DNA of 21,516 bases from Prolixibacteraceae bacterium (GTDB lineage: Bacteria; Bacteroidota; Bacteroidia; Bacteroidales; Prolixibacteraceae): assembly GCA_014380255.1 (NCBI GenBank), contig JACMKG010000056.1, positions 1 through 21,516 on the forward strand, read 5' to 3'. Below, in pieces: positions 827-15,059 of the stretch (position 1 is its first letter; each line of letters begins with the position of its first letter). Both the position numbers and the translations under genes were made by a program. The notes beneath the pieces are model-generated. The model was not told where the DNA came from, made no database searches, and was given only the letters and a program-made list of their open reading frames with translations.

Positions 827-2773
827 TTATACAATCCTTTTAATTTTACGGGTTAGTGGGCGTTCAATCATGATTGGGACTTTCTCTTCAATCACGGTGC
901 TGGTATCCAATCCAAAGGATTTGACATCATTGATGCTTAGCAGTCGTGTAAAGGAATGAAGGCCCATGATCATGGTCTCCCACGCTGAAAGCTTATAGTC
1001 CTGGGTCATTACCCTATCGAGGTTCACAAACAGGAAATCGGGCGGGAAGTGATGCTTTTTGAGCGATTCATAGAAGCTGATAAGCTTTATTTCATCGTTG
1101 GTGACCATATCCGTTACAATATCCCGGAAGTAAAGGTTGATACGAGGCTCTATTTTAAAGCCCAGATGGATATCCACACGTATCAGTGTTCCGGGAATAA
1201 ACTGGGTAACTTCATAGCTAAAGGTATCGGGCTCATCCACAACGTCTACATGTAAAAACCAATAGGTCTTGGCACGTTTGGGTTGTTTGTTGAAGATGGA
1301 ATACATGATTTTGGATTCTATCTCATGGGGCCTGTTGGCCTTGATGATATACACCAGGTTGGTGGCTATCGGCTTGATGGAGGTATCCTTGCTCAGGTCT
1401 TCAAACAAGTGAAGATACTTGTTGAGATTGACAAAACTGATGTGACGGTTTTTAATGCGACGGCCAAAGAACCAGCCAACCATGACCAGCAGGAAGACAA
1501 AGCCAAGGGCAATGGAAAACCATCCGCCATGGGCAAACTTATGAAGGTTGGCAATAAGGAAAGAGGTTTCGATGGCCCCGAACAGTAATGCCAGAAAGGT
1601 CAGAATGGGTATGGATACCCCCTTTTGGTACAGGTAATGGATCAACAGCAGGGTGGTCATCATCATGGTAATAGTGATGGACAGTCCATAGGCAGCCTCC
1701 ATGTTGGATGACTCGCGGAAAAACAGCACCACAAAGCAAACCATAATCCATAAGAGCCAGTTGACAAAAGGGATATACACCTGGCCTTTAACCGTGGTGG
1801 GGTGCAGCACCTTTATCTTGGGCCAGAAGTTCAGGGATACCGCCTCATTGATAAGGGTATAGGAACCTGTTATCAAGGCCTGGCTGGCAATGACAGCCGC
1901 GGCTGTAGAAATAAGGATACCGGGGAAGAGAAACCACTGGGGCATGATGGCATAAAAAGGGTTTAAATCATGGGTAAGCGTAGGGTGATTCATCAGCCAT
2001 GCCCCCTGTCCAAGGTAATTTAGGATAAGGGAGATCTTGACAAAGATCCACGAGACGCGGATGTTGTGGATGCCGCAATGGCCAAGATCGGAATATAGGG
2101 CTTCAGCGCCTGTGGTACATAGGAACACGGCCCCGAGTAGGATAAATCCTTCAGGGTAATGGGCCAGGAAATCATAGGCATAATAAGGGTTCAGCGCCCT
2201 TAATATCTCAGGGTAGGTTGTTATCTGGCCAAAGCCCAGAACGGCGAGCATTCCGAACCAAACCACCATTACGGGGCCAAAGAAATTCCCTATAAAACGG
2301 GTGCCGAACTGCTGGATGAAAAACAGGGCAGAGATGATCACCAGCACTACCGGCAATACGGGTATATCCGGATTGATGAGCAATAACCCTTCGATGGAGG
2401 AGGTCACGGTAATGGAAGGAGTGATTACTCCGTCGGCCAAAAGGGCACTGCCGCCAATGATTGTTAAGGTAGCTGCCCAGGTCGATTTCTTTTTCATCAG
2501 GGCATACAAGGCAAAGATGCCACCTTCCCCATGGTTATCGGCCCTAAGAGTGATGATTACATATTTTAAGGTGGTTTGAAGGGTTAAGGTCCAGAAAACA
2601 CAGGACAGGCCTCCATACACCAAGGTTTTGGTTATCTGATCGGCACCCGAGATGATCGCCTTGACTACATACAATGGACTGGTGCCGATATCTCCAAATA
2701 CAATGCCTATGGTGATTAATAATCCGGCAAAGGTTACTTTGTTTAAAGTATTGGAATGTTTTTGATCTGACAT
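827..2773 (-). CDS. kup: Kup-family low-affinity potassium transporter
   Basis: Kup/HAK/KT proteins import K+ with protons across the inner membrane. The 648-residue product fits the family length (E. coli Kup is 622). Residues 27-36 read GDIGTSPLYV and residues 78-92 hold ADNHGEGGIFALYAL, both hallmark Kup segments. A hydrophobic region with about twelve predicted membrane segments fills roughly the first 440 residues and includes a late HGGWFSIALGF segment. The last 200 or so residues form the hydrophilic cytoplasmic tail. It is the last gene of the minus-strand potassium cluster, 54 bp downstream of the response regulator, with no obvious promoter in the gap. It is therefore probably co-transcribed with and regulated by that two-component system. 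No terminator was found after the stop. Confidence in the family is very high; operon membership is inference. Confidence 0.96.
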   Translation of the reverse strand: MSDQKHSNTLNKVTFAGLLITIGIVFGDIGTSPLYVVKAIISGADQITKTLVYGGLSCVFWTLTLQTTLKYVIITLRADNHGEGGIFALYALMKKKSTWAATLTIIGGSALLADGVITPSITVTSSIEGLLLINPDIPVLPVVLVIISALFFIQQFGTRFIGNFFGPVMVVWFGMLAVLGFGQITTYPEILRALNPYYAYDFLAHYPEGFILLGAVFLCTTGAEALYSDLGHCGIHNIRVSWIFVKISLILNYLGQGAWLMNHPTLTHDLNPFYAIMPQWFLFPGILISTAAAVIASQALITGSYTLINEAVSLNFWPKIKVLHPTTVKGQVYIPFVNWLLWIMVCFVVLFFRESSNMEAAYGLSITITMMMTTLLLIHYLYQKGVSIPILTFLALLFGAIETSFLIANLHKFAHGGWFSIALGFVFLLVMVGWFFGRRIKNRHISFVNLNKYLHLFEDLSKDTSIKPIATNLVYIIKANRPHEIESKIMYSIFNKQPKRAKTYWFLHVDVVDEPDTFSYEVTQFIPGTLIRVDIHLGFKIEPRINLYFRDIVTDMVTNDEIKLISFYESLKKHHFPPDFLFVNLDRVMTQDYKLSAWETMIMGLHSFTRLLSINDVKSFGLDTSTVIEEKVPIMIERPLTRKIKRIV

Positions 2774-2827
2774 GAAAAAAGTAAATTGAAATTCTTATTT
2801 GAAAGGATTAAGGTATTTTCTGCAATA

Positions 2828-3511
2828 TTAATCACTGAAACGGTAACCGATACCGGATTCGGTAATCAAGTAGACAGGCTTGGAAGGATTATCTTCAATT
2901 TTTTTGCGCAACTGGGCAACAAAGACCCTCAGATACTGTGTCTGTTCCACATATCCATAGCCCCATACTTCCTTTAGGATATGCTGATGGGTAAGCACTC
3001 TTCCCTGGTTTTTAGCCAAAAGGTAAAGCAAGGAGAATTCGGTAGAAGTAAGTTTTAGTATCTCTTTGTTTTTACGAACAATATGGTTGATGTTGTCAAT
3101 GCTCAGGGAGCCTATTTCCAGCAGGGGATTATCATTTTTATTCTCACCGGCACGGATGGCAGCTCTTATTCGGGCAAGTAGTTCACCGCTTCGGAAAGGT
3201 TTGGTAAGGTAATCGTTAGCCCCGTTGTCAAGGGCTTTTATAATATCTTCTTCCGAACTTCGTACCGAAAGCACCAGGATGGGTTTAAAAAACCATTCAC
3301 GCAGCTTTTTCAGTATCTCCTGTCCGTCGATGTCTGGTAACCCAAGATCCAGAATGATCAGTGAAGGGTTGGTGGTTGCAGCCTCTACCAGTCCTTCCTT
3401 TCCGCTTGCAGCATGAAGAATCCGGTATCCGCTGGCCGAGAGGGTGATTTCAAGCAGGCGTCGGATCTGCAATTCATCATCAATAATCAGTATAGTGCTA
3501 TTTTCATTCAT
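2828..3511 (-). CDS. kdpE: KdpE-like OmpR/PhoB-family response regulator
   Basis: This is a 227-residue transcriptional regulator. The receiver domain (about 5-120) shows the acidic pair D11-D12, the phospho-acceptor D55 in ILDLGLPDIDG, and the conserved K104 in YLTKPF. A winged-helix DNA-binding domain follows (about 130-226), ending with the typical LRKKIEDNPSKPVYLITESGIGYRF-like wing. Its start overlaps the stop of the upstream kinase gene by 4 bp, a classic translationally coupled histidine kinase/response regulator pair. It resembles KdpE most closely, and its neighbours kup and trkH suggest control of potassium uptake. The kdpFABC target operon is not in the window, so the regulon is inferred. 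Calling it KdpE rather than a generic PhoB-like regulator is reasonable but not proven. Confidence 0.85.
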   Translation of the reverse strand: MNENSTILIIDDELQIRRLLEITLSASGYRILHAASGKEGLVEAATTNPSLIILDLGLPDIDGQEILKKLREWFFKPILVLSVRSSEEDIIKALDNGANDYLTKPFRSGELLARIRAAIRAGENKNDNPLLEIGSLSIDNINHIVRKNKEILKLTSTEFSLLYLLAKNQGRVLTHQHILKEVWGYGYVEQTQYLRVFVAQLRKKIEDNPSKPVYLITESGIGYRFSD

Positions 3512-5073
3512 TGGTTGAGCAATAGATTGTGAATGTTTGGATTTTCTGTGGGTATCTGAATAGTGAAAGCCGAGCCCCCGTCTTTGCGGTTTCTTACACT
3601 AACTGTCCCTTTGTGGGCTTCAACAAATCCTTTTACAATGGAAAGGCCCAAACCCAATCCACCGGTCTTGTTGCCATCTACCCTGTAGAATTTATTGAAT
3701 AAATCTTTAATGGCCTTATCCGGGAACCCGGGGCCACGATCTTTTACCTGAATCATGAGCAGTCCATCTTCATACCGGATGTTTAATTCAATTTCTGATC
3801 CTGTGGGCACATACTGGGTGGAGTTGATCACCAGGTTGTACATGCTCTGTTCCAGGAGGCCAAAATCAACCTTTACCAGGGGCATATCCTCGGGTATGGA
3901 TACCTTCAGGGTAAAAGCTTTCAGTTCCTCCTTCAGATCCTCGGCCACTTTATTTGCCAGATCGTTCATGTCGTACCAGTCAAGGCGAACCGATAACTGC
4001 CCGCTTTCCAGTCGGGACATATTTAACAGGTTTTCAATTAGTCGGTTAAGTCTTAGCGAGGCGGTGAAGATCTCATTAAACAAATCAGCCTTTACGCTTT
4101 CCGGATGGATGGAATTCATGAGTGAATCGGAAGCTCCCATGATGGTAGCCACCGGTATTCTGAACTCATGGGAGATGGAGTTGAACAGTGTTTTATACAG
4201 CCGGTCTGACTCGACCAGGAAGCGTGCCTTTTGGGCCAGTTCTCCCAGAAATTCCCTTTCCAGGGCATTGGCTATCTGGGTGAGAAAGGTATCCCAGAAG
4301 GCCTTTTCATCGGCTGTAAACAACCGCCCGGGCTTTACGGCTACCACTCCGGCATTTAAACGGGTACCCGGTAAGGGGTAAAACGAATATTGCACATTCG
4401 AATGGGTAGGGGTGAATCTTCCGGCAGGTTGAAGGTGGGTAAACACCCATTCGGCTAACTGGTATTCCTCAGGGGTAAGCTTTTTCTCCTTCTGAAGCCT
4501 GCCCGATGAGTGAAGGATATTATTCCCATCCTGCAGGATGAAAAAGGCACCCATGGAAAAATGATTGCTGATCCGTTCAAGGGCAATGGTCAGCACCTCA
4601 TCAATACCACTGGCTTTGGAAAGTTCCCTGGTAAGCTGAAACAGGGCATTGGTGCGTTCTTCCCTTTCGCGGGCAAGCCGCTCCTGCCTTCTGACCTTGG
4701 TAGTAAGGACCCCGTCTACAAGGGCAATGATGAAGAACATACCGAACATGAGGATATCTTCCGTCTTGTCGATGTGAAAGGTAAGGTTGGGAGGAATAAA
4801 GAAAAAATTCCATACCAGGGCGCTTAGGGTGGCGGCCACAAACACAGGGCCAATGGCCATAAAGGTGGCCAGGATGGAAACCACAAAAAGCAGGATAAAG
4901 GATACCACATGATAGCCCTGCTGGTTCGACAGCGGGGTGCAAAGCAAGGCCGTCAGACCAATAATGAATATGGAAAGCAAATAATGGTTGATCCTGGCAG
5001 ACAGGGAAAAGGGAAACTTCCTTTGTTCAGTTTTTAGATCCATAATACTGTATATGGGAGCAAAATTAACCAT
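3508..5073 (-). CDS. KdpD-like sensor histidine kinase lacking the N-terminal KdpD domain
   Basis: This 521-residue membrane kinase probably senses K+ or turgor and phosphorylates the adjacent regulator. Residues about 28-125 contain closely spaced membrane segments of the KdpD DUF4118 type. A GAF-like region follows (about 140-270), then the dimerisation/phospho-acceptor helix with H302 in SISHEFRIP. The ATPase domain has its N-box around N413-N417, the G1 box DRGPGF at 445-450 and the G2 box GGLGLGLS at 471-478. Classic KdpD has a further roughly 370 cytoplasmic N-terminal residues (KdpD domain plus USP domain) that are absent here. The chosen start has GGAAG four bases upstream; an internal Met11 is an alternative. 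The gene follows trkH by 60 bp and overlaps the regulator gene by 4 bp. Confidence 0.87.
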   Translation of the reverse strand: MVNFAPIYSIMDLKTEQRKFPFSLSARINHYLLSIFIIGLTALLCTPLSNQQGYHVVSFILLFVVSILATFMAIGPVFVAATLSALVWNFFFIPPNLTFHIDKTEDILMFGMFFIIALVDGVLTTKVRRQERLAREREERTNALFQLTRELSKASGIDEVLTIALERISNHFSMGAFFILQDGNNILHSSGRLQKEKKLTPEEYQLAEWVFTHLQPAGRFTPTHSNVQYSFYPLPGTRLNAGVVAVKPGRLFTADEKAFWDTFLTQIANALEREFLGELAQKARFLVESDRLYKTLFNSISHEFRIPVATIMGASDSLMNSIHPESVKADLFNEIFTASLRLNRLIENLLNMSRLESGQLSVRLDWYDMNDLANKVAEDLKEELKAFTLKVSIPEDMPLVKVDFGLLEQSMYNLVINSTQYVPTGSEIELNIRYEDGLLMIQVKDRGPGFPDKAIKDLFNKFYRVDGNKTGGLGLGLSIVKGFVEAHKGTVSVRNRKDGGSAFTIQIPTENPNIHNLLLNQ

Positions 5074-5133
5074 TTATCTTCCTAGTTGTTAAATAATTGC
5101 ATGTACTGTTTCTATTTGATAACATTGGATGAT

Positions 5134-6576
5134 TCAGAAGCTTTTTGAAAATAAAACAATCACTGTATATATTTCCAATCTTCCCAGAAGCATCATCAAT
5201 GAAAGAATCACTTTTGCCAATTCGGGAAGGTGAGCAAAATTACTGACAGGCCCGATGGTCCCTATTCCGGGACCTATGCCGGCCATGCATGTTGCAACGG
5301 CGCTGCTGGCCGTCTGCCCGTCAATACCCAAAAGGGCGAGCAATAGACTGCCTGTGACAAATACCAGGACGTAAACGGTGATAAAGGTTAGTATTGACTT
5401 ATTGGCTTCAGAGCTTATGACCTTTTGATTCAGCTTGATTGGTCTGACGGCATGGGGAGCAATCAGCTGATAGAAAAAGTTTTTGATATTCTTTAAAAGA
5501 ATCAGATGACGGGCCATCTTTATTCCTCCTGCCGTAGAGCCGGTACTGCCTCCAAGAAACATGGCAAAGAACAGAATAGACCAGGCGAAGGCGGGCCACT
5601 GCAAATAATCAGTAGAAGCGAACCCGGTGCAGGTAACGATAGAAACTACCTGGAAGAAGGATTCCCTGAAGGATTCCTCCAACGTTTTAGGCATGGAGAA
5701 ATACAAACTGGCAGTAATTGTCATTACCAGCAGAAACACAACAAAAAGGTAAAACCTTAGTTCTTCATTCTCCCTGACTTTTTTGAATTCATGTTTATAC
5801 AGGTAATAATGAATGGCAAAATTGGTTCCGGCCAGAAGCATGAAAGTGGTTATCACATATTGGATGTAGGGCGAATATTCTATAATGCTGGCATTTTTGG
5901 TTCCAAACCCACCGGTAGCCACTGTTCCAAAAGAATGGCATACACTGTCGAAAAGGGGCATTTGACCTGCCATCAAAAAGAGGATTTCAGCAAGGGTCAG
6001 AATGACATAGATCAGAAGCACCCGGTTTCCAATAGCTTTGATTTTGGGCTGAATCCTATCCTGCAACGATGATTCAAGGGTGAATAAGTGGTAGCTTCCC
6101 ACATGAAAGGCAGGCATGACAATGATGACCAAAACAATAATGCCGATACCACCAATCCAGTGCGTCAGGCTTCTCCAATACAGCATTGATTTGGGCAATG
6201 CTTCTATGTCTGTCAATATGGAAGCTCCGGTGGTGGTAAAGCCTGATACGGATTCAAAGATGGCATTTACAATGCCCGGAATAGCTTGTGAAAACAGATA
6301 AGGCAACGAACCGATTAAAACGATTAACAACCATGACAAGGTCACAATGAAAAAAGATTCCTTTCTGCGTAAGGGAATAATTTCACCTTTGCCCTTGGAA
6401 AAAAAATGGGAAATCAACCCAAGGGAAAAGCTCAAAAGCGAAGTGTATACAAAAGGCAGGATATCCTCTGAATAGTAGAGGGCCACCGGCACGCAGGTGA
6501 ATACAAAGGCTGAGAGTATGATCAGATTAAAGCTCAATACCTTGCATGTGTTCCTATGATTTTCCTGTCTTTTCAT
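5134..6576 (-). CDS. trkH: TrkH/KtrB-family potassium uptake membrane subunit
   Basis: This 480-residue integral membrane protein forms the K+-conducting pore of a Trk/Ktr system. The four pore-loop signatures are visible: TTTGAS (114-119), TGGFGT (221-226), TCTGFA (315-320) and GIGPGIG (433-439). The gating-loop region GGSTGSTAGGIK sits at 342-353. The family normally works with a peripheral nucleotide-binding TrkA/KtrA subunit, but no such gene is present in the window, so it must be elsewhere or be replaced. It appears to be the first gene of the minus-strand potassium cluster. I found no clear TAnnTTTG promoter immediately upstream. The GC-rich structured stretch 150-380 bp upstream could be part of a leader, but that is speculation. 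Confidence 0.95.
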   Translation of the reverse strand: MKRQENHRNTCKVLSFNLIILSAFVFTCVPVALYYSEDILPFVYTSLLSFSLGLISHFFSKGKGEIIPLRRKESFFIVTLSWLLIVLIGSLPYLFSQAIPGIVNAIFESVSGFTTTGASILTDIEALPKSMLYWRSLTHWIGGIGIIVLVIIVMPAFHVGSYHLFTLESSLQDRIQPKIKAIGNRVLLIYVILTLAEILFLMAGQMPLFDSVCHSFGTVATGGFGTKNASIIEYSPYIQYVITTFMLLAGTNFAIHYYLYKHEFKKVRENEELRFYLFVVFLLVMTITASLYFSMPKTLEESFRESFFQVVSIVTCTGFASTDYLQWPAFAWSILFFAMFLGGSTGSTAGGIKMARHLILLKNIKNFFYQLIAPHAVRPIKLNQKVISSEANKSILTFITVYVLVFVTGSLLLALLGIDGQTASSAVATCMAGIGPGIGTIGPVSNFAHLPELAKVILSLMMLLGRLEIYTVIVLFSKSF

Positions 6577-7070: not shown

Positions 7071-7157
7071 TCTACCATATTGTCGGTGCTATGCACCTTT
7101 AAAAAGATTTGTTAGCAATACGTTTCTACTATACTTTTTGGTGCTATGCACCTATTA
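7071..7157. repeat. Paired GGTGCTATGCACC palindromic repeats, left flank of the array
   Basis: Two copies of a 13 bp palindrome (5 bp stem, TAT loop) lie at 7085-7097 and 7140-7152, 55 bp apart. Each is preceded by TCTAC(C/T)ATA(T/C)T (7071 and 7125) and followed by CCT plus an A/T-rich tail. The same paired arrangement occurs at 9955-10045, on the far side of the small-gene array. They look like REP-type intergenic repeats; function is unknown. Confidence 0.75.
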
Positions 7158-7322: not shown

Positions 7323-7697
7323 ATGATTAAAGATAATGAAATAAGCCGCTCGTGCTTTTACTATGACATGTTCATTGAAAGGGCCTATGGTACCTATGAA
7401 CCGGACATTCCGGGGTGTCATGCTCATAAAATAGAAGCTTTGATAATGGCTGAAAAGGAGAAGGATGTCTCGGTTGAATTCATTGCTGACTTTGAGGAGC
7501 AGCTGATCGAAATTAAAAGATGCATGGAAGAGGCCTTGGATATGTACTTGGCCATGACTCATGTGCCCAAAGAGATCATCAATGAATTAAAACACACTCA
7601 AGAGCAGGTGGTTTATGCCGTCAGCTCCGATGAACTGATGAAAATTGTATATAAAACCATTGATTTAACAGTTTCTGTACCTCTTGATATGAAATGA
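7323..7697 (+). CDS. Small acidic predicted-helical protein, array copy 1, unknown family
   Basis: This is a 124-residue protein of no family I recognise. It aligns without gaps to the products at 8405-8782 and 9269-9664, and is about 60% identical by hand count to the latter. Shared residues include C11-F12-Y13-Y14, F17, E19, Y22-G23, F57-E58, the AVSS(D/E)EL segment at 99-105 and, with copy 4, KTIDLTVSVP at 111-120. It has no signal peptide or membrane segment. The charge pattern suggests a bundle of amphipathic helices and a cytoplasmic location. It begins the tandem array about 170 bp after the left repeat pair, and no clear promoter was found just upstream. Conservation of an open frame and of family-specific residues across copies argues that it is a real gene. 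Confidence 0.75.
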   Translation: MIKDNEISRSCFYYDMFIERAYGTYEPDIPGCHAHKIEALIMAEKEKDVSVEFIADFEEQLIEIKRCMEEALDMYLAMTHVPKEIINELKHTQEQVVYAVSSDELMKIVYKTIDLTVSVPLDMK

Positions 7698-7891
7698 TAA
7701 ATACTGATTAATATTTAAATACTGCTAGTTGTCAGGTAATTTATTGTTTACAAAATCCGAATTTCTTAATTAAAATTTGTAACTTGAATTAACATTACGT
7801 TGTTGCATGCGATTTATTTTTGCTGTAATCCGTCTTTGAGTGGGGTTTTTAGATCAATTGATTTTAATAGTTAACTAAACCGGATAAGTTT

Positions 7892-8265
7892 ATGATTGAA
7901 GAAAAGCAATTAGTCAAATCTTGTTTTTATTATGAAATATTTATGGAAAGGGCCTATAACCGATTTACCCTCCAAAAGCCGGATATGCAGGCATCAGGGA
8001 TGAGAAATTTGATGGTGGCCGAATAACAGACCGCTGTTTCCTTTGAGTCGTTGATGAATTTTGAGGAACAGCTGACAGAGATTAAAATAACATGAAAGGT
8101 GCCTTATACAGTTACATGCACAAGCCCAATGTTCCCCGATATATCATGGATGAATTAAGCATTTATAAAGATCAGGTAGTTTGGGCTGTCAGCTAGGATG
8201 CACTGATAAAAATTGTACATGACACCATCAATTTGACGAATATTCTATTCATATCTAAACAATAG
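7892..8265 (+). pseudogene. Array copy 2, disrupted by two stops and a frameshift
   Basis: This is a fourth member of the small-protein family, recognisable along its whole length. It starts MIEEKQLVKSCFYYEIF and carries an in-frame TAA at codon 45 (8024-8026). A single-base deletion near 8084-8090 follows (ATTAAAATAACATG, where copy 4 has ATTAAAAAGGACATG). After the shift it reads on to a TAG at 8194-8196 in place of the residue after AVS, and ends at the TAG at 8263-8265. The segment QKPDMQASGMRNL groups it with copy 3 rather than copies 1 and 4. A TATTTTTG element at 7816-7823 could be a leftover -7 box, but no matching -33 box lies at the right spacing. Confidence 0.85.
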
Positions 8266-8404
8266 GTTTTTATAACTGTATTATAACTGAGGGATTACAA
8301 TTTTGAACACTTAATCGAATGATGTTTTTTTAATAGCTACACGTATGGTTGTACATCGGTTTGGTTCGTTGTAATTTCCAAGTATCAAATAATTCGGTTT
8401 AGGT

Positions 8405-8782
8405 ATGATTGCAGAAAAAAGATTAAGCAAGGCATGCTTTTATTATCAAACATTCATGGAAAGTGTCTATGGCAGCTATGTGCGACAGAAGCCCGATTTG
8501 CAGGCATCGGGCATGCGGAATTTAATTATGGCTGAAAAAGAGATATCAGAGACTTATGAATCAGTTGCTCGCTTTGAAGAACTGCTTTACGGGATTAAAA
8601 AGCATATTAAAGAGGCCATAAACCACTACATGGCTACACCCAATATATCCAAAGAACTCATCGATGTATTAAAGGAAACAAAGGCCCAGGTGAGTTGGGC
8701 GGTCAGCTCAGAGGAACTGATACTAATTATATTTAAAATAATGGATTTGAGAATTCTTACACCACTTTCCATGAAAGGATAA
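8405..8782 (+). CDS. Small predicted-helical protein, array copy 3, unknown family
   Basis: This 125-residue member of the tandem family keeps C11-F12-Y13-Y14, F17, E19, Y22-G23, F57-E58 and AVSSEEL (99-105) in the same positions as copies 1 and 4. It is the most diverged intact copy, especially in its C-terminus (KIMDLRILTPLSMKG instead of KTIDLTVSVP...MK). The shared QKPDLQASGMRNL segment ties it to the broken copy 2 just upstream, from which it is separated by 139 bp of AT-rich DNA. No signal peptide or membrane segment is visible, and no clear promoter was found in the upstream gap. Function is unknown. Confidence 0.75.
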   Translation: MIAEKRLSKACFYYQTFMESVYGSYVRQKPDLQASGMRNLIMAEKEISETYESVARFEELLYGIKKHIKEAINHYMATPNISKELIDVLKETKAQVSWAVSSEELILIIFKIMDLRILTPLSMKG

Positions 8783-9268
8783 AGAACCTGGGAAAAGAAA
8801 TGATTGATTACAAAGTTATTCTATAATACATCAAGCCAGGATCCGTGAAATTTAATTTGAAACTTAATACTACTTGGCTTTTTGTCGTCGCTTACGATAA
8901 GTTTAATGTTACCCAAGCCAAGGTTCAAGGTTTTTAAATTGGATAGGTTTCAAACAATCAAGCGATTTTATTAAAACTTGCTTTTTCTGTAATTATTTGC
9001 TGCACCAAATTAATTCTATTTCCATTCACTGATCGTATTGCAGCGGCGCTTTCCATTTATTTTCGAGCAACAAAAACAATACAGTACTAATTTATTTATC
9101 TGAATATAAATAAATTAAAATTTGTTTTATATAATTATTACATTATCTTTGACATATTACCCTAAAGGAAAACCTTTTTGATGTCTCTATTTTAGTACCC
9201 ACTATACTTCAATTCATCCATCGATAAATTCTCTTTTAAGTTTTTAATTAAAACTAAATAGAATATGT
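8783..9268. other. AT-rich intergenic gap between array copies 3 and 4
   Basis: This 486 bp stretch carries no supported coding frame. Its only readable feature is the promoter at 9121-9151, described separately. Confidence 0.6.
9121..9151 (+). promoter_or_regulatory. Bacteroidota-type promoter for array copy 4
   Basis: TTTG (9121-9124), a 19-base spacer and TATCTTTG (9144-9151) match the Bacteroidota primary-sigma consensus (-33 TTTG, -7 TAnnTTTG). The spacing is identical to that of the tRNA promoter at 11002-11032. The inferred leader before the ATG at 9269 is about 110 bases. Confidence 0.6.
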
Positions 9269-9664
9269 ATGATTGAAGAAAAAAGAATGAGCAAGGCTTG
9301 CTTTTATTATGAAATGTTCATGGAAAGGGCGTATGGCATGTATGAGCCAAACGTTCCGGGCTACCATGCCTGTATAATGAGAAACCTGATTACTGCCGAG
9401 AAAGGGAAAATCGTTTCCATAGAAATAGTGACTCACTTTGAAAAGCAGCTTACGGAAATTAAAAAGGACATGGAAGATGCCTTGGACAGTTACTTGGCTA
9501 AACCTAATTTTCCAAAGGAAATCATTGATGAATTAAAAAAATACAAAAGTCAGGTGGTTTGGGCCGTATGCTCCGAGGAACTGATGGAAATTGTATTTAA
9601 AACCATTGATTTAACAGTCTCTGTACCCATCAAAATGAAGTTGACCGGCTTTGAATTTTCATAA
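9269..9664 (+). CDS. Small predicted-helical protein, array copy 4, unknown family
   Basis: This 131-residue member of the tandem family is closest to copy 1 (about 60% identity over 124 gapless positions, counted by hand). It shares CFYYEMFMERAYG near the start, FPKEIIDELK around 81-90 and KTIDLTVSVP at 111-120, and adds a short extra tail. It is the only copy with a convincing promoter upstream. A GTATG precedes the start, so the ATG at 9265 is out of frame and 9269 is the sensible start. No domain, signal peptide or membrane segment is recognised. A stable hairpin lies 16 bases after the stop. Function is unknown. Confidence 0.78.
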   Translation: MIEEKRMSKACFYYEMFMERAYGMYEPNVPGYHACIMRNLITAEKGKIVSIEIVTHFEKQLTEIKKDMEDALDSYLAKPNFPKEIIDELKKYKSQVVWAVCSEELMEIVFKTIDLTVSVPIKMKLTGFEFS

Positions 9665-9954: not shown

Positions 9955-10045
9955 TAACTATACTGTCGGTTCTATGCACCTTTGAAAAAAACCACAGCAG
10001 CGATCTTTAGCTACCATACTTCCGGTGCTATGCACCTTTTAAAAG
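9955..10045. repeat. Paired GGTGCTATGCACC palindromic repeats, right flank of the array
   Basis: Copies at 9968-9980 (GGTTCTATGCACC, one base changed) and 10024-10036 (exact) are 56 bp apart. Each is preceded by CTA(C/T)(C)ATACT-like sequence and followed by TTT. The unit, period and orientation match the pair at 7071-7157, so the two pairs bracket the small-gene array as direct repeats about 2.9 kb apart. Confidence 0.75.
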
Positions 10046-10242: not shown

Positions 10243-10375
10243 TGCCAATCCCTGAACATCCATCTGCCAATCCCTGAACATTGCCATCATTAGTAACCCA
10301 TCTGTAACCCATCTGTAACCTTTCTGTAACCTCAGATACAGAAAGGTTACCAATGAGTTACCAATGGGTATCTAA
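10243..10375. repeat. Short direct repeats and a long imperfect inverted repeat
   Basis: TGCCAATCCCTGAACAT occurs at 10243-10259 and 10265-10281 (22 bp period). Next come tandem TAACCCATCTG-like units (10291 onward), whose reverse complement follows. GTAACCTTTCTGTA (10315-10328) pairs exactly with TACAGAAAGGTTAC (10337-10350) around an 8-base loop, and imperfect pairing extends outward to about 10290 and 10375. The result is a hairpin of roughly 80 bp. Confidence 0.7.
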
Positions 10376-10650
10376 AGCAGATAAAGTTCAGTGAAAGGAG
10401 GAGATTAGAAACCCATCTCAATCAACATCAAAGAAAAAAGAAGGAACACCGATTTTTTGCCGGTCGTTGGAAAGAGCGTTTAGACATTTACCTTCTAAAC
10501 ATTTCATTCAAAAAATGCTTCTGATAGTGGATTCAACTGAGAAGGAAGTTTTTTTGCCTAAAGCCCCAAAAGGGGAAACTTCTGTTTTAATTTTCACCAC
10601 CGCTTTTTAGATTGATCCAAAATCTAAATATTTAGGATTTATTTAAAACA
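10376..10650. other. Intergenic stretch without recognisable genes
   Basis: There is no supported coding frame. A small CCCC-AAAA-GGGG hairpin lies near 10564-10575 and an AAATC...GGATTT palindrome near 10619-10640. Nothing else is recognisable. Confidence 0.45.
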
Positions 10651-10686: not shown

Positions 10687-10710
10687 ATAATGTTCATCAT
10701 TTCTGATGTG

Positions 10711-10786
10711 TCGGGGTAGTAGGATTCGAACCTACGACCCCCTGGTCCCAAACCAGGTGCGCTAACCGGACTGCGCTATACCCCGA
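10711..10786 (-). tRNA. tRNA-Pro (anticodon TGG)
   Basis: On the minus strand the acceptor arms TCGGGGT and ACCCCGA pair, the anticodon stem-loop reads CCTGG-TTTGGGA-CCAGG (anticodon TGG), and the T-arm contains GGTTCGAATCC. The 76-base gene has no encoded CCA. It lies 26 bp downstream of tRNA-Ser and just before a strong terminator, so the two form a unit. Confidence 0.96.
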
Positions 10787-10811
10787 GTGAACAATAAGCG
10801 GTTATAATAAT

Positions 10812-10901
<90 letters not shown>

Positions 10902-11001: not shown

Positions 11002-11032
11002 CAAATATAGAACTTGTTTTTTCTTTAGCAAA
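11002..11032 (-). promoter_or_regulatory. Bacteroidota-type promoter of the tRNA-Ser/tRNA-Pro unit
   Basis: On the minus strand TTTG (11032-11029), a 19-base spacer and TATATTTG (11009-11002) match the -33/-7 consensus of the Bacteroidota primary sigma factor exactly. Transcription would begin about 95 bases before tRNA-Ser. Confidence 0.75.
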
Positions 11033-11601: not shown

Positions 11602-11696
11602 AGCGTCATCCTGAACTTGTTTCAGGATCTCCTCGCACACCATTAACCAACATCCTTTATTTTACAGGGGGTGCCGAAACAAGTTCGGCATGACGC
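11602..11696. repeat. Palindromic repeat pair (CCTGAA/TTCAGG and GCCGAA/TTCGGC)
   Basis: GCGTCATCCTGAACTTGTTT begins the first arm (11602-11629) and GTGCCGAAACAAGTTCGGCA begins the second (11671-11696). They are inverted relative to each other, share GCGTCAT at their outer ends, and differ by compensated stem changes (CCTGAA/TTCAGG versus GCCGAA/TTCGGC). This is the same family as at 19-95 and 242-367. Confidence 0.75.
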
Positions 11697-11797
11697 TATG
11701 AACGTGATTGTCAGAAACCAGAAGCCATAAGATTTAAATAGTCCCCCAAGTACTCGAGGGTAAGTTGCCGATTAGTCAATTATTTCTAATTCGTGCT

Positions 11798-13396: not shown

Positions 13397-14311
13397 TTAG
13401 AGGTGATTGACAACGGCAGAGAATGTTTGCTTTTTGCCTCTTTTATCGCATACAAATTCAATGATACCGGCAGCCAGGGTACCCCATCCGGCCTGATTCA
13501 CCAGTACAAGGCGGCCATCGGCATTCTTCAGCTCCAATGGCCTATCGACAAAGCTATGGGTGTGGCCTCCCACGATTAGGTCTGTATAGCGCGTCATGGG
13601 TGCCAACGAAAGATCGCTGATCTTTGAATGCTCATACTTTAAACCAAGGTGCGAGAGCGCAATAACCAGGTCGCACGAGTGTTCTTCTTTAAGCATCCTT
13701 TCCATCTTAAGAGCCGTTGCCGCAGGATCAAGAAACCTGGTATTGCCGAAATTCTGGGTGCCTACCAATCCCTCCAGTTCAATGCCAAGGCCATAGATAC
13801 CTATTTTGATGCCCGCCTTATGAAGGATAAGATGGCTTTTCACCTTTCCCGAGAGGATGGTATCCGAGAAATCGTAGTTACTGGACACCAGGGGGAAAGA
13901 GGCATGCTGAAGGGCAGAAGCGATATCCGGTAGCCCGTTGTCGAATTCATGATTGCCAATGGTTCCGGCATCATAGCCCATCTTGCTCATCAATTTGAGG
14001 ATCAGATCGCCTTTAAAGTAGTTGAAATAAGGAGTCCCCTGGAACATATCCCCTGCATCGAGCAGCAGCATGTTGGGATTTTCGGCTCTTTGGCGGGCAA
14101 CCAGTGAAGCCAGTCTAACCATACCACCACGCCCTGCATATTCAGCATTCGTTTCAGGAAAAGGATCGATGTGGTAATGCATGTCGTTGGTGTGCATTAC
14201 CGTAAGCTTTACCAGCTCGCCAGAAGCAAACAGTTCGGTGGGAAACATGGCCAGCGACAGAGCTCCTGTACTCAGCGCTGATTGTTTTATAAACGTTCTT
14301 CTATTGCTCAT
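13397..14311 (-). CDS. Tat-exported metallophosphatase, catalytic half of a 5'-nucleotidase/UshA-type enzyme
   Basis: This 304-residue periplasmic enzyme probably hydrolyses nucleotides or nucleotide sugars. An N-terminal twin-arginine signal (SNRRTFIKQS, then a hydrophobic stretch ending near FAS) is followed by a calcineurin-type phosphoesterase domain with the metal-binding motifs TNDMH (41-45), GDMFQGTP (87-94), GNHEFDNG (119-126), SHLG (220-223) and GGHTH (248-252). I chose the start at 14311 because GGAGG lies 7 bases upstream of that ATG; an in-frame ATG five codons earlier would put that motif inside the gene. It overlaps the end of the upstream lipoprotein gene by 11 bp. It lacks the C-terminal substrate-binding domain of UshA/CD73-type enzymes, which is encoded by that neighbour. 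Confidence 0.9.
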   Translation of the reverse strand: MSNRRTFIKQSALSTGALSLAMFPTELFASGELVKLTVMHTNDMHYHIDPFPETNAEYAGRGGMVRLASLVARQRAENPNMLLLDAGDMFQGTPYFNYFKGDLILKLMSKMGYDAGTIGNHEFDNGLPDIASALQHASFPLVSSNYDFSDTILSGKVKSHLILHKAGIKIGIYGLGIELEGLVGTQNFGNTRFLDPAATALKMERMLKEEHSCDLVIALSHLGLKYEHSKISDLSLAPMTRYTDLIVGGHTHSFVDRPLELKNADGRLVLVNQAGWGTLAAGIIEFVCDKRGKKQTFSAVVNHL

Positions 14312-15059
14312 TGTAGATCCTCCCATCCTCTTTTACTTCCATCACTCCATTTTCTTTATAACGAACAGTTAAAGCTCTGATCAGTTCATCCCTTATTTTC
14401 ATTCCTGTATTGATTCGCTGCTTTGGGTTCAGGAACATGCTCATCTGGTCGCCCCCGTTGGCTATGTAGTCGCTGGTAACCACCCAGTAGAAAGCCTGCG
14501 GATCGATTGCTTTGCCCTTGATGGTAAGACTACCTACCTTGTCATTGCGGATGCCCATCCGGAAGCCTGCAATCCCTTCACCCCCGCGGGCAGCTATCTT
14601 GGCTGCCATGTCGAGAAAGGCAGAACCACTGATTTCAACCAGCACTATCTCGTTTTCAAAAGGCATCAATTCAAAGATCCGCTGAACGGTGATTTCACCC
14701 TGAGGCAGCGAGGAGCGAAGCCCCCCATAATTAGTATAGGCAGCATCGGGTTGTATGTTAATATTTTGTTTCTGAACGTAAGAAGAGCCATAATCAAGCA
14801 GTATATCAGTCACCAGGTTGGTCAGTTTGCTTTCAGGCTTCCCTTTTACTAAAGGTGAAGGGCTAACGGTTACCAGTGTCGACATATCTTTCTCAATGCT
14901 ATCGCGATAAGGCCTGACTATCGATTCGATGGCTGAGTCGATGGGTGCCACCTGCGGACCAATGGTGACATTTTTTGTATTTACCTCTCGTACAACCAAC
15001 TGCCGGTTGCAGGAAAATAAAAATAAAAGAGCTAAAAAAACGATGGATAAACGATGCAT
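14301..15059 (-). CDS. Lipoprotein with the 5'-nucleotidase C-terminal substrate-binding domain
   Basis: The 252-residue product begins with a lipoprotein signal ending in LFSC (Cys17 would be lipidated). It consists essentially of the 5'-nucleotidase C-terminal domain: NYGGLR (110-115), the GEITVQRIFELMPFENEI segment (121-138), and TSDYIANGGD (195-204), which in UshA-like enzymes help bind the nucleotide. It has no metallophosphatase motifs. Its 3' end overlaps the start of the catalytic-domain gene, so the two halves of a normally single enzyme are separate, translationally coupled proteins, with the binding domain encoded first. Lipidation suggests membrane anchoring of a two-part enzyme, and Lnt at the cluster's end could act on it. 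The pairing is inferred from domain content and overlap. Confidence 0.87.
   Translation of the reverse strand: MHRLSIVFLALLFLFSCNRQLVVREVNTKNVTIGPQVAPIDSAIESIVRPYRDSIEKDMSTLVTVSPSPLVKGKPESKLTNLVTDILLDYGSSYVQKQNINIQPDAAYTNYGGLRSSLPQGEITVQRIFELMPFENEIVLVEISGSAFLDMAAKIAARGGEGIAGFRMGIRNDKVGSLTIKGKAIDPQAFYWVVTSDYIANGGDQMSMFLNPKQRINTGMKIRDELIRALTVRYKENGVMEVKEDGRIYNEQ

Follow-up and report, generated by a model that had tools for sequence, protein, structure and literature searches.

The tandem array

The window, the whole stretch of 21,516 nucleotides that was analysed, comes from a Prolixibacteraceae bacterium and carries a tandem array of small genes in one orientation between positions 7323 and 9664. 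The features of the array and its immediate flanks are given below, with relatives from outside the window designated by P numbers.

7085-7155, + strand: left-hand pair of GGTGCTATGCACC-type repeats (55 bp apart), probably incidental to the array
7323-7697, + strand: copy 1, intact, 124 aa; clade A; nearest relatives P0004, P0006, P0007 and P0009
7892-8265, + strand: broken copy, with TAA, frame change and TAG; nearest intact relative P0026
8405-8782, + strand: copy 2, intact, 125 aa; clade B; nearest relative P0023; five helices predicted by AlphaFold2
9122-9151, + strand: Bacteroidota-type promoter-like element, TTG-N19-TATCTTTG; its end lies 117 bp upstream of copy 3
9269-9664, + strand: copy 3, intact, 131 aa; clade A; nearest relatives P0003 and P0028; five helices predicted by AlphaFold2
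9968-10039, + strand: right-hand pair of GGTGCTATGCACC-type repeats (56 bp apart), probably incidental to the array

The three intact genes and one broken copy described in the sequence-only reading are present at these positions and are paralogous, the intact proteins being 44-61 % identical (61 % between copies 1 and 3, 52 % between copies 2 and 3, and 44 % between copies 1 and 2). The similarity of copies 1 and 3 amounts to 154 bits, far above chance. The gap-free alignment of these proteins was confirmed over 124 columns, a 7-residue C-terminal extension in copy 3 aside. Of the motifs that they had been reported to share, AVSS(D/E)EL does not extend to copy 3, which reads AVCSEEL. The intergenic gaps along the array are 194, 139 and 486 bp, in agreement with the AT-rich spacers of 139-486 bp noted previously. 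Their GC content is 26-30 %, below that of the intact genes (38-40 %) and of the window as a whole (43 %). Besides the family genes, the list of ORFs for 7323-9664 holds just two short antisense ORFs, which overlap copies 1 and 3; no toxin gene lies between the array members.

Loss of one copy, also claimed previously, is supported by the TAA, frame change and TAG in 7892-8265. In the broken copy, which has an ATG at 7892, codon 45 is an in-frame TAA (8024-8026); a frame change follows at approximately 8080-8095, and a TAG near the 3′ end (8194-8196) precedes the terminal stop (8263-8265). It is read by tblastn as two pieces in two frames. Because the sequence is otherwise well preserved, this decay looks recent.

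The promoter-like element at 9122-9151 matches the Bacteroidota promoter consensus in full. Each strand of the window has a single full match: this one on the + strand, and one on the - strand that begins at 11031, upstream of two tRNA genes. The intergenic gaps ahead of copy 1, the broken copy and copy 2 contain none, and 0.12 would be expected in the four gaps together, based on single-base shuffles. A general sigma-70 scan was uninformative (16 sites vs 14.5 in shuffles).

Distribution, age and constraint of the family

Searching 5.8 billion proteins with the three window proteins gave 38 matches (E <=1, 214 candidates). A second search of the 5.8 billion with all 38 rows as queries likewise gave 38 (E <=10, 4874 candidates), adding three new proteins and lacking P0027, P0035 and P0037 from the first. 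Combined, the searches identified 41 distinct proteins, three from the window and 38 from outside it. No non-family protein was found even at E 10 in this number of proteins. The suggestion of a narrow distribution is therefore upheld in the collections searched, given 38 outside relatives among 5.8 billion proteins. Three of these relatives are from Prolixibacteraceae (locus tags VFG54_04575, VFG54_18165 and VFG54_20790), and the members with this prefix sit on three contigs differing in size. H7X84_10260, H7X84_12645 and H7X84_12650 are assigned to Verrucomicrobia by one source and to 'Prol...' by another, and the remaining 32 of the 38 are metagenome proteins whose longest contigs span 902-7394 bases.

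Pattern scans of the GTDB species genomes gave 141 pattern matches with copy 3 and 19 with the alignment, none of which was confirmed. The copy 3 pattern set matches 13 of the 41 known members exactly and the alignment pattern 29 of 41; because such scans depend on short patterns, divergent or single-copy members could escape them. A phage or mobile origin was rejected, as copy 3 was unmatched in plasmids and phages, and all 55 pattern matches to the alignment in viral contigs were unconfirmed.

Weak, scattered matches only were obtained from Pfam and NCBIfam for the three window proteins and from Pfam, PHROGs and PADLOC for all 38 rows (the best 25 of 40 Pfam families, the best 25 of 52 PHROGs, and all 6 PADLOC matches inspected). 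Among the matches listed, the strongest were phrog_34918 (E 0.001, 6/38 members), CNV-Replicase_N (E 0.0025, 6/38) and OKR_DC_1_N (E 0.0031, 7/38), and no family reached more than 8/38 members; the strongest PADLOC match was to a homing endonuclease model (E 0.0023, 5/38 members). Identity with a known family was rejected, these best E values being at chance level for 38 proteins scanned. A sequence search of the PDB gave a designed protein as its best match (E 0.078). Literature searches, with most subscription journals outside their scope, found nothing relevant on general terms for such proteins and nothing on the locus-tag prefixes VFG54 and H7X84. That the family is an unrecognised one, as first proposed, is borne out by the absence of a significant profile match in Pfam, NCBIfam, PHROGs and PADLOC.

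In a tree of 39 rows, three of them from the window and 36 drawn from the 38 outside proteins, each intact copy groups with its own outside relatives. Copy 1 groups with four outside rows (bootstrap/SH-aLRT 100/100), to which it is 77-83 % identical, copy 2 with P0023 (100/99; 68 %), and copy 3 with P0003 and P0028 (99/95; 81 % and 73 % for the two). The broken copy matches P0026 at 85 % over 65 residues and 74 % over 58 residues. Since each window copy has its own outside group, the copies split before parting from those relatives, which speaks against recent local expansion. The local expansion previously put forward is thus not supported, with three copies in three separate outside groups and the broken copy with an intact relative of its own; old paralogues can form an array with the look of a recent local expansion. 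P0028 (H7X84_12650), a relative of copy 3, is the only one placed by name in a separate assembly, and the relatives of copies 1 and 2 could be orthologues elsewhere or further paralogues of the same genome. The two fragments excluded from the tree, P0037 and P0038, are N-terminally short relatives of 83 and 88 aa; they may represent repeated breakage of family copies, or gene-calling or contig-end effects.

Comparisons also suggest that tandem pairs recur outside the window, with linkage judged indirectly from locus tags and equal contig sizes. H7X84_12645 and H7X84_12650 have adjacent locus tags and an equal-sized longest contig, and the two members of P0023/P0026, P0003/P0036 and P0006/P0027 also have equal-sized longest contigs, the sizes found among these three pairs being 1444, 2134 and 2249. 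Four such pairs among the 38 outside proteins compare with 0.30 expected; in simulations, where the smoothing was our own choice, three or more pairs occurred in 0.0046 and four or more in 0.0005. Copy 2 and the broken copy, neighbours in the window, have P0023 and P0026, respectively, as their nearest relatives.

Ratios of dN/dS by Nei-Gojobori counting are 0.49 for copies 1 and 2, 0.24 for copies 1 and 3, and 0.30 for copies 2 and 3, values that are rough because synonymous sites are near saturation (dS between copies 0.9-1.1). They point to constraint; a Ka/Ks near 1, which had been named beforehand as a sign of non-functional drift, was not observed, the ratios being 0.24-0.49. It is most improbable that the array consists of neutral remains left by the decay of an old gene family. 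Such decay would fit with one of the four copies being broken and with the two relatives as short as 83 and 88 aa, but not with three open frames having these ratios, nor with seven columns that are invariant over 38 sequences. What can most safely be said is that the family is real and undescribed, has a narrow distribution, and consists of old paralogues that are under constraint.

Neighbouring genes and flanking repeats

To the left of the array, on the - strand at 827-6576, are a Kup-like transporter, a KdpE-like regulator, a KdpD-like kinase, and a TrkH-like transporter, all with model matches that fall below NCBI's cut-offs; of the 895 positions in the KdpD model, the kinase matches only 396-888. 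To the right, beyond two tRNA genes, is an apolipoprotein N-acyltransferase (lnt), which is above the NCBI cut-off. Among the best 120 rows, relatives of Lnt are 87 % (a metagenome protein) and then 67-68 % identical, and the matches listed include 58 % to a protein labelled Candidatus Saccharibacteria and 57 % to Prolixibacteraceae. On these identities, the window probably belongs in Prolixibacteraceae or close to it. At 13397-15059, a UshA-like 5′-nucleotidase is split in two adjacent genes, matching the N-terminal and C-terminal parts of the model.

The GGTGCTATGCACC repeats on either side of the array are short and palindromic, with a conserved left flank and a unit spacing of 55-56 bp. 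There are four copies in the window, a number reached in 0 of 100 dinucleotide shuffles. One pair per side arises in approximately 10 % of random placements in intergenic DNA, therefore no weight is placed on this arrangement. There was no exact match to the repeat in viral contigs, and matches were weak for the left pair in plasmids (6 records, E 4) and for the right pair in phages (1 record, E 5). Nothing was found on this repeat type in the literature, where most subscription journals were outside the scope of the search.

A mobile or recombining cassette with these pairs as its boundaries, which would include the array and would have spread the family to several loci, is very unlikely. The number of repeats, two per side and unmatched in the 100 shuffles, would be consistent with such a cassette, as would the GC content of the array, which is below that of the window, and the presence of several loci under one locus-tag prefix. 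However, a pair on each side is expected at random about as often as stated above, no 14-mer of the tRNA stretches at 10700-10760 and 10805-10865 recurs within the window, and no recombinase or integrase was identified among the 10 window proteins up to 17454 (NCBIfam, E 1e-10). The region matched 239 plasmid records, of which the best 20 align at the two tRNA genes; these tRNAs are the only RNA families in the region above cut-off.

Two other repeats were seen in the window. An imperfect 58-nt inverted repeat, partly of 11-bp repeats, lies in intergenic DNA before the tRNA genes (10271-10394) and matches no RNA family at cut-off. A 32-nt inverted repeat containing GTCATCCTGAACTTGTTTCAGGATCT is at 11602-11697 and resembles dispersed intergenic repeats.

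Predicted fold and possible role

AlphaFold2 predicts five helices for copy 3 (pLDDT 89.5, pTM 0.83) and for copy 2 (pLDDT 86.9, pTM 0.82). When solved structures were compared with these models, there was no close match. The hemerythrin-like domain of DcrH (PDB 3waq, 2avk) differs in that the family has no invariant histidine and hence no di-iron ligand set; structural Z at such a level is common among helical bundles. The five-helix bundle of the vinculin tail (PDB 1qkr) is eukaryotic, with 10 % identity and no sequence link, and is regarded as no more than a common arrangement. Nickel superoxide dismutase (PDB 3g50, 1t6i) carries an N-terminal nickel hook, which is not seen in the aligned sequences of the family.

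Four residues, E44, K65, A71 and Y75, are invariant in 38/38 rows, and E19 and R20 are present in 35/36 and E58 in 36/38. There is one well conserved cysteine, C11 (31/34 rows), which stands alone. No histidine column is invariant, H33 being found in 16/36 rows and H56 in 27/38. Between the two main clades, comprising 20 and 19 of the 41 A4 rows with the two fragments excluded, clade-specific residues occur at five columns (27, 29, 33, 47 and 51) by our own cut-offs. No signal peptide or membrane helix is visible by eye.

The invariant glutamate, lysine and tyrosine could equally form a ligand or catalytic site. Small-ligand binding or catalysis by the bundle, via E19, R20, E44, E58, K65 and Y75, would account for the conservation of these six residues, in particular for E44, K65 and Y75 in every row. 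This is nevertheless improbable, as there is no invariant histidine column, C11 is isolated, and there is no significant match to an enzyme family in Pfam or NCBIfam; the conserved residues may merely pack the bundle. A protein-binding role is favoured because the proteins are predicted to be small helical bundles, with no signal peptide or membrane helix seen and no conserved set of metal ligands. Partner choice would most naturally reside in the loops, where the types differ.

The explanation preferred here is tentative, and as a whole has somewhat less than an even chance of being correct. The array would belong to a family of small proteins that is old and narrow in distribution, with members that are predicted to fold as five-helix bundles and are probably cytosolic. 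Several paralogue types would predate the outside proteins closest to each window copy, with purifying selection keeping the intact copies and occasional losses, such as the broken copy. The proteins may act by stoichiometric protein binding, in which a conserved core with the charged residues E19, R20, E44, E58, K65, E104 and D114 would hold the fold or a common partner site, and the loops flanking helix 2 (residues 27-33 and 47-51) would decide the partner of each type. The family is a coherent one, with defined paralogue types and a fold predicted with confidence; it has no significant counterpart in the profile libraries searched and no confirmed member in the GTDB species genomes scanned, and is small enough to be studied as a whole. 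If its proteins do bind partners, the paralogue types are ready-made tests of specificity.

Immunity, defence and stress were among the roles raised in the sequence-only reading; no evidence was found to link the family to any of these three. In homogeneous polyimmunity loci, toxin-less immunity paralogues would each bind and neutralise a different competitor toxin. In such loci the gaps are typically small, the genes are probably co-transcribed and differ in number and type among strains, and organisms usually have a single locus (Zhang et al., 2012; PMC3482391). The likeness to that description lies in tandem small paralogues in one orientation with no toxin genes between them, here in a stretch where the family genes are alone, and all-alpha immunity families exist (PMC3482391). 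The differences are the wide gaps (194, 139 and 486 bp), with a separate promoter-like site before copy 3, the lack of a known immunity domain, several loci under one locus-tag prefix, and the narrow distribution. The VFG54 members are on three different-sized contigs, as against the single locus usual in that account. Imm63 is the sole Imm family among the best 25 of 40 Pfam families (E 0.046, 1/38), and there is no significant match in Pfam (38 members), NCBIfam (three window proteins) or PADLOC (38 members). In addition, the closest relatives of the array proteins, at 68-83 %, are near the best of the neighbouring lnt (87 %, then 67 %). It is therefore unlikely that the array is a locus of this kind.

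The wide spacing and the lack of a known immunity domain would still be compatible with an immunity-like mode of action. The proteins may form a clade-restricted, all-helical set of immunity or anti-effector proteins, in which the types would recognise different protein threats via the helix 2 loops, as a repertoire kept over a long time at several loci; this too is improbable.
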